From positions 1 to 33,848 of the forward strand of contig MNWR01000081.1 in NCBI GenBank assembly GCA_001872725.1: 33,848 nucleotides of DNA. Direction: 5' to 3'. The stretch is from Proteobacteria bacterium CG1_02_64_396. Its GTDB lineage: Bacteria; Pseudomonadota; MNWR01; CG1-02-64-396. A model generated the notes under the pieces. That model searched no databases, was not told where the DNA came from, and saw nothing but the letters and a program-made list of their open reading frames with translations. The position numbers and the translations under genes are program-made. Shown piece after piece: positions 16,156-21,101 of this stretch (positions within the stretch are counted from its first letter, which is position 1; every line of letters begins with the position of its first letter).

Positions 16156-16324
16156 GGCATGCTCCTTCGGTTGTTGGGGTAGGGGGGGCGGTCACCGGGC
16201 GATCATATTCGACGTTTTCTAATCGTGCATCGAATCGCTGGTACGACCAGAACATGATTTTCAGATGATGCTCTTGGAGCAACCGCAAAGCAGGTGACGC
16301 CAAGTCTTGATTTTTTCAGCAGAC

Positions 16325-16361
16325 AAAAAAAGCGCGCCCCGGCAAGCCAGGGCGCGCTTTT
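16325..16361 (-). terminator. Intrinsic terminator of the nitrogen operon (after glnA)
   Basis: On the minus strand AGCGCGCCC pairs with GGGCGCGCT across 10 nt, followed by seven T. A few T residues also follow on the plus strand, so it could work in both directions. It lies about 50 nt after the glnA stop. Confidence 0.9.
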
Positions 16362-16387
16362 CGATAAAACCGCCAGGGAGGGGAAGA

Positions 16388-16406
16388 GCCCCTCCGACGG
16401 AGGGGC
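16388..16406. repeat. Perfect hairpin just downstream of the glnA stop
   Basis: GCCCCTCC-GAC-GGAGGGGC: an 8-bp perfect stem with a 3-nt loop, 5 nt past the glnA stop and ahead of the main terminator. Without a T run it is more likely a 3' end stabiliser for glnA mRNA than a terminator. Confidence 0.7.
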
Positions 16407-19535: not shown

Positions 19536-20824
<1,289 letters not shown>

Positions 20825-20884: not shown

Positions 20885-20899
20885 GCGAAATGCGTGCCA
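20885..20899 (-). promoter_or_regulatory. Sigma-54 (RpoN) promoter of the nitrogen operon
   Basis: On the minus strand TGGCACGCATTTCGC matches the -24/-12 consensus TGGCACG-N4-TTGC except for one base (T to C in the -12 box). GG and GC have the exact 10-nt spacing. It lies about 60 nt before the porin start, so transcription should begin near 20873. An activator such as NtrC is expected; I saw no clear NtrC site. Confidence 0.75.
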
Positions 20900-21101
20900 T
20901 CCCTTTTAAATGACCTGCGCTTCATCACGCGGTGAGTGTCTCTGTATATTGCGAGGGCAATTTTCCGTCCAGTTTTGTCAGGGTTGCGACATTGGGGCAT
21001 GCGCTACCCCCAAAGTTGACCACGACCGCCCCCCTCCCGACAATGCCGCCCCTTGTCGATCCCCTCTGTGCCCGAACATTGTGATTCTGGCCACCTTATA
21101 A

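Follow-up and report, generated by a model that had tools for sequence, protein, structure and literature searches.

A putative NifA-type upstream site and a probable sigma-54 promoter in front of genes for PII, NAD synthetase and glutamine synthetase in a proteobacterium with nitrogen fixation genes

The analysed stretch of DNA, called the window in the following, comprises 33,848 nt (contig MNWR01000081.1 of Proteobacteria bacterium CG1_02_64_396). On its minus strand lie four closely spaced genes. The first (20824-19910) encodes a protein of 304 aa with a signal peptide, a Ser/Thr-rich linker and a C-terminal part distantly resembling TorF porins. It is followed by a gene for a PII signal protein, probably of glnB type (19874-19536; GTG start, Tyr51 and Asp54 present), by nadE for a glutamine-dependent NAD+ synthetase (19531-17891; NF010588, 695 bits, cut-off 479) and by glnA for a type I glutamine synthetase (17827-16412; TIGR00653, 663 bits, cut-off 429). 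The gaps of 35, 4 and 63 nt given for this four-gene unit in the preliminary description were confirmed from the open reading frames. The single intrinsic terminator of the operon, at 16361-16325 on the minus strand, also proved to be real and strong, since the 98-nt stretch around it folds at -52.9 kcal/mol (z -5.0). From this arrangement we infer that the four genes are co-transcribed. The nadE gene encodes the only full NAD synthase of the genome, as two weaker matches in other open reading frames cover less than one third of the profile, and glnA encodes the only glutamine synthetase.

The region 3' of glnA (16319-16390, minus strand) gave a full-length match to the Rfam family of the suhB/mmgR sRNA, below threshold with 33.5 bits (gathering 41), and an unpaired CCCCUCCCU stretch precedes the terminator within it. 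In E. coli, the sRNA GlnZ is annotated just after glnA. The match could reflect a 3'-UTR sRNA or could be driven by the terminator.

Two gene names required revision. The product of the first gene, previously called a porin, matched no protein family at any level, it did not match the TorF profile TIGR02001 at E values up to 10 and a plasmid search with it gave no match. The C57 TorF paralogue, which itself matches TIGR02001, shares 24% identity with its C-terminal part over 143 aa (E 0.002 in a single comparison), and the structure prediction for this part reached a mean pLDDT of only 31. In view of this weak TorF similarity the porin label is unproven and amounts to a guess. For the second gene, glnB-type fits better than the earlier name glnK, because the gene is linked to glnA and nadE while an amtB-linked glnK sits elsewhere, on contig C57. 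No amtB adjoins the PII gene of the window, its neighbours being nadE and glnA. In a phylogenetic tree the window PII grouped with nadE-linked PII proteins and E. coli GlnB, with a support of only 79/81, and the amtB-linked paralogue grouped with GlnK.

The first amtB of the amtB–TorF–glnK–amtB unit on contig C57 (L079 2376-6556, minus strand) is preceded at 40 nt by a sigma-54-like site, AGGCACGCCGATTGC, and three ACGACA repeats stand directly before this site. A further, weakly PII-like protein is encoded on contig C52 (L080 4477-6724, minus strand), where its neighbours are a CBS-domain-like protein and a transporter of the membrane; the same contig bears an IscA-NifU-NifS-like cluster (gene names assigned by eye) with its own sigma-54-like site.

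Upstream of the first gene, TGGCACGCATTTCGC occupies positions 20899-20885 of the minus strand and reads as a sigma-54 promoter of the -24/-12 type, TGGCACG-CATT-TCGC, with a predicted transcription start at about 20873. As had been claimed, the element differs from TGGCACG-N4-TTGC at a single base: 10 of 11 consensus bases are kept, GG (-24) and GC (-12) are 10 bases apart and the spacing is exact. The distance of about 60 nt to the first gene was likewise found, with 60 nt between the motif and the ATG at 20824. Thirteen of the 15 bases are identical to the glnAp2 promoter of E. coli (TGGCACAGATTTCGC), and the sole deviation from the consensus, TCGC for TTGC (giving TTTCGC), is exactly the -12 box of glnAp2.

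The motif is not enriched genome-wide (33 sites with at most one mismatch, compared with 43 for a reversed control pattern), and by itself it is therefore no evidence. Three such sites occur in the window, and Markov-simulated sequence of the same composition contained about 56 sites of equal quality (10/11, GG and GC kept) per 3 Mb, counting both strands. What makes the element credible is its position together with the resemblance to glnAp2; on the right strand of the 277-nt intergenic region only about 0.003 such sites are expected by chance. A weight matrix built from 10 other local promoters, which we judged to be overfitted in the spacer, scored the window site low (7.5, as against 13.9-20.3 for its members). 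Given the presence of rpoN, the position, the glnAp2-like -12 box and the sigma-54-type promoters before amtB-glnK and the nif genes, the four-gene unit is very probably driven by this promoter, a reading which is well supported.

Two other promoter-like elements lie nearby. A second sigma-54-like site with one mismatch, TGGCACGTCGTGTGC, is located within the start of the first gene (20775-20789, minus strand), 110 nt downstream of the first. A sigma-70-like element, TGGACG-17-TATACA (20943..20971, minus strand), is weak (8/12) and scored no better than chance in a simple scan; it is listed as a candidate housekeeping promoter because some such promoter is needed.

The genome (2.94 Mb in 109 contigs) is the only representative of its order and class among the genomes compared. 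It encodes both regulators on which the earlier proposal depended, RpoN (PF04552, 222.7 bits) and NtrC (TIGR01818, 588.8 bits, cut-off 558.6), the latter with NtrB just upstream, and a search for the sigma-54 activator domain gave nine strong matches. NifA was found as well (TIGR01817, 677 bits, cut-off 529), NifL, NifH, NifE, NifV and NifB all scored above their cut-offs, and two large open reading frames downstream of nifH look, by eye, like nifD and nifK. By its gene content, the organism is a diazotroph. Divergently from nifH lies draT (PF07357, 360 bits; L103 8944-9861, minus strand, contig C108), and nitrogenase is probably switched off by ADP-ribosylation in this organism.

The preliminary description had proposed RpoN/NtrC control of nadE. 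Its sigma-54 part is well supported and rpoN and ntrBC are present, but the DNA lends no support to NtrC as activator. When the region upstream of the promoter was scanned for sites of the form TGCACC-N5-GGTGCA, the best reached 8/12, which equals shuffled sequence. In the positive control, E. coli glnA, the known sites were found with 11/12. The region before the genome's own amtB-glnK operon likewise yielded no site above the shuffle background. The power of this test is thus low should NtrC recognise a divergent consensus in this organism, as it may.

A different upstream element was recognised while the sigma-54 sites of the genome were read, when palindromes of the type TGTCGC-N4-GCGACA were seen before nifV and others. 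TGT-N10-ACA is the form recognised by NifA (PMC2820453). In the window, a putative NifA-type upstream activator sequence (UAS) of this form, TGTCGCAACCCTGACA, is present at 20976..20991 on the minus strand, 76 bp upstream of the promoter. This spacing falls within the 45-103 bp that separate UAS and sigma-54 site at the nif promoters of the same genome (nifH 86 bp, nifE 45, nifL 103, nifV 72, nifB 97); a gene for a SIR2-like protein has such a pair as well, 61 bp apart.

When the nif UASs were modelled without the window site, 20976-20991 ranked first in the window (15.2, next best 11.3); the nifH UAS scored 15.0 and the others 19-23. The site is imperfect, matching the local consensus at 10 of 12 positions, and lies below all nif UASs except that of nifH. 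The pattern TGTCG-N7-GACA, loosened to take in the window site, which had itself been spotted after the nif sites, occurs at 14 places in 2.94 Mb compared with three matches for a reversed control, and nine of the 14 are followed, at a distance of about 40-110 bp, by a correctly oriented sigma-54-like site. Pairs of UAS and sigma-54 site of this quality numbered zero and one in two simulated sequences of 3 Mb. Judged from these elements, NifA appears the likelier activator of the window promoter, by a modest lean, and NtrC a rather doubtful one.

Further genes of the genome have a NifA-type UAS in front of a sigma-54 site. One encodes a protein of 200 aa without family match (L106 6324-6926, minus strand, contig C73); its sigma-54 site is accompanied by two NifA-type UASs, both near-perfect, at 55 and 94 bp, and the gene is a candidate for an unknown gene of the nif regulon. 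The SIR2-like domain protein mentioned above (L104 3412-4269, minus strand, contig C108) and a GlpC/GlcF-like Fe-S protein, the latter with the UAS 44 bp upstream of its sigma-54 site (L107 2901-4253, minus strand, contig C51), are encoded by others.

We compared the locus with its relatives and with published systems. PII genes adjoining nadE are common, with 1300 such islands described (PMC7196632), and the window contains such a pair, since a PII gene (P-II match) stands beside a glutamine-dependent nadE (NF010588) with a gap of 4 nt. Among the 29 best nadE relatives, the window left out, PII adjoins nadE in 12, and six of these 12 also have glnA, in the order nadE–PII–glnA; nifH is present in the genome of one of these relatives. 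A scan of genome contigs revealed two distant nadE loci with neither PII nor glnA nearby. No sigma-54 site (at least 9/11, with UAS) was detected before the unit in any of the 12 related nadE-PII loci, so that placing nadE under sigma-54 does seem to be uncommon, as had been stated beforehand.

The window differs from the related loci with glnA, in which nadE is the leading gene and a sigma-54 site upstream of the unit is lacking, and from the published PII–nadE islands (PMC7196632) by the order porin-like gene–PII–nadE–glnA and by its sigma-54/NifA-type promoter. With E. coli glnAp2 it shares the -24/-12 element including TCGC, and glnA in the unit; unlike there, NtrC-type sites are lacking, a NifA-type UAS is present, and the porin-like gene, PII and nadE precede glnA. 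The combination of a TGT-N10-ACA UAS and a sigma-54 promoter corresponds to the type of promoter found in the nif island of Pseudomonas stutzeri (PMC2820453), although the window promoter serves genes of nitrogen assimilation and NAD synthesis instead of nitrogenase and its UAS is less perfect. Similar to nlmA–glnK–amtB of Herbaspirillum (PMC3023670), a gene for a membrane-associated protein precedes PII under nitrogen control, which in the window is predicted; there, however, amtB takes the place of nadE and glnA, and the first gene of the window is only weakly TorF-like. The parts are thus known, and the variant would consist of nadE occupying the third place of a unit whose promoter is of the NifA type. 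A full-text literature search, mostly of journals outside subscription, retrieved no paper that describes NifA as a regulator of nadE or NAD synthetase.

The sequence itself shows the genes, both DNA elements with the distance between them, and the presence of rpoN, nifA, nifL, nifH, draT and ntrBC. For this organism we infer that NifA binds, that the operon is induced, that PII contacts NadE and that DraT is linked to the process, as parts of the following scheme. At low levels of fixed nitrogen and oxygen, NifL would release NifA. Bound to TGT-N10-ACA at 20976-20991, NifA would reach RNA polymerase–sigma-54 at the promoter (20885-20899) by looping and would open it. The operon would thereby be switched on at the same time as the nif promoters. 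More glutamine synthetase would be made alongside nitrogenase and would capture the new ammonium, and NAD synthetase and its PII partner would increase as well. When ammonium returns, PII relieves glutamine-dependent NadE of feedback inhibition by NAD+; DraT spends NAD+ under the same condition, and according to the authors the PII–NadE pair keeps NAD+ balanced (PMC7196632). In the organism studied here, PII would likewise lift the inhibition of NadE, at the time when DraT would spend NAD+ and nitrogenase would be turned off. The published idea of NAD+ balance fits here, as the genome has draT and combines nadE, PII and glnA in one unit. With only one copy each of nadE and glnA, control cannot rest with NifA alone and another promoter must serve ammonia-grown cells; basal glnA and nadE expression may come from the weak sigma-70 site or from NtrC acting at an unrecognised site.

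Sigma-54 promoters are classical for both glnA and PII genes, and those of glnA are classically targets of NtrC. The locus might represent this classical case, an operon of the glnB–glnA type under an NtrC/sigma-54 promoter in which nadE is carried along, with NtrC~P binding sites unlike the enteric consensus and TGT-N10-ACA arising by chance. The genome does encode ntrBC, with NtrC above the curated cut-off, E. coli glnA uses the same -24/-12 type and the Herbaspirillum nlmA-glnK-amtB operon is NtrC-dependent (PMC3023670). As pairs of UAS and promoter are rare by chance and no NtrC-like site rose above the shuffle background, a result of low power if the local consensus differs, we consider this reading rather unlikely, but NtrC may act at the operon promoter in addition to NifA.

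Still less probable, to a degree that we regard it as improbable, is that the -24/-12 match itself arose by chance, that a sigma-70 promoter expresses the operon and that nadE is without transcriptional nitrogen control. Such a view would agree with the lack of genome-wide enrichment of the motif, with the need for the single-copy genes nadE and glnA at all times and with the absence of sigma-54 sites from related nadE-PII(-glnA) loci. It has to account, however, for the combination of position, strand, start-codon spacing, glnAp2-like -12 box and upstream UAS, and the best sigma-70-like site is poor (8/12). Slightly favoured on balance is that the sigma-54 promoter links the synthesis of glutamine and NAD with nitrogen fixation, its activator being NifA and possibly also NtrC. 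To the narrower proposal we assign chances just short of even: in an operon shared with PII and the sole glutamine synthetase, the single NAD synthetase of a diazotroph would be a direct target of NifA acting via sigma-54, and NAD+ capacity would thus grow along with nitrogenase and stand ready for DraT once ammonium is back.

The discoverers of the PII–NadE interaction argued that in diazotrophs the NAD+ supply must match DraT activity (PMC7196632), and the arrangement described here points to a joint rise of NAD supply and nitrogenase. If NifA control holds true, a transcriptional layer would be added to the action of PII on the NadE protein, the coupling of NAD+ and DraT would become directly testable, and the NifA regulon would extend from nitrogenase to cofactor supply.
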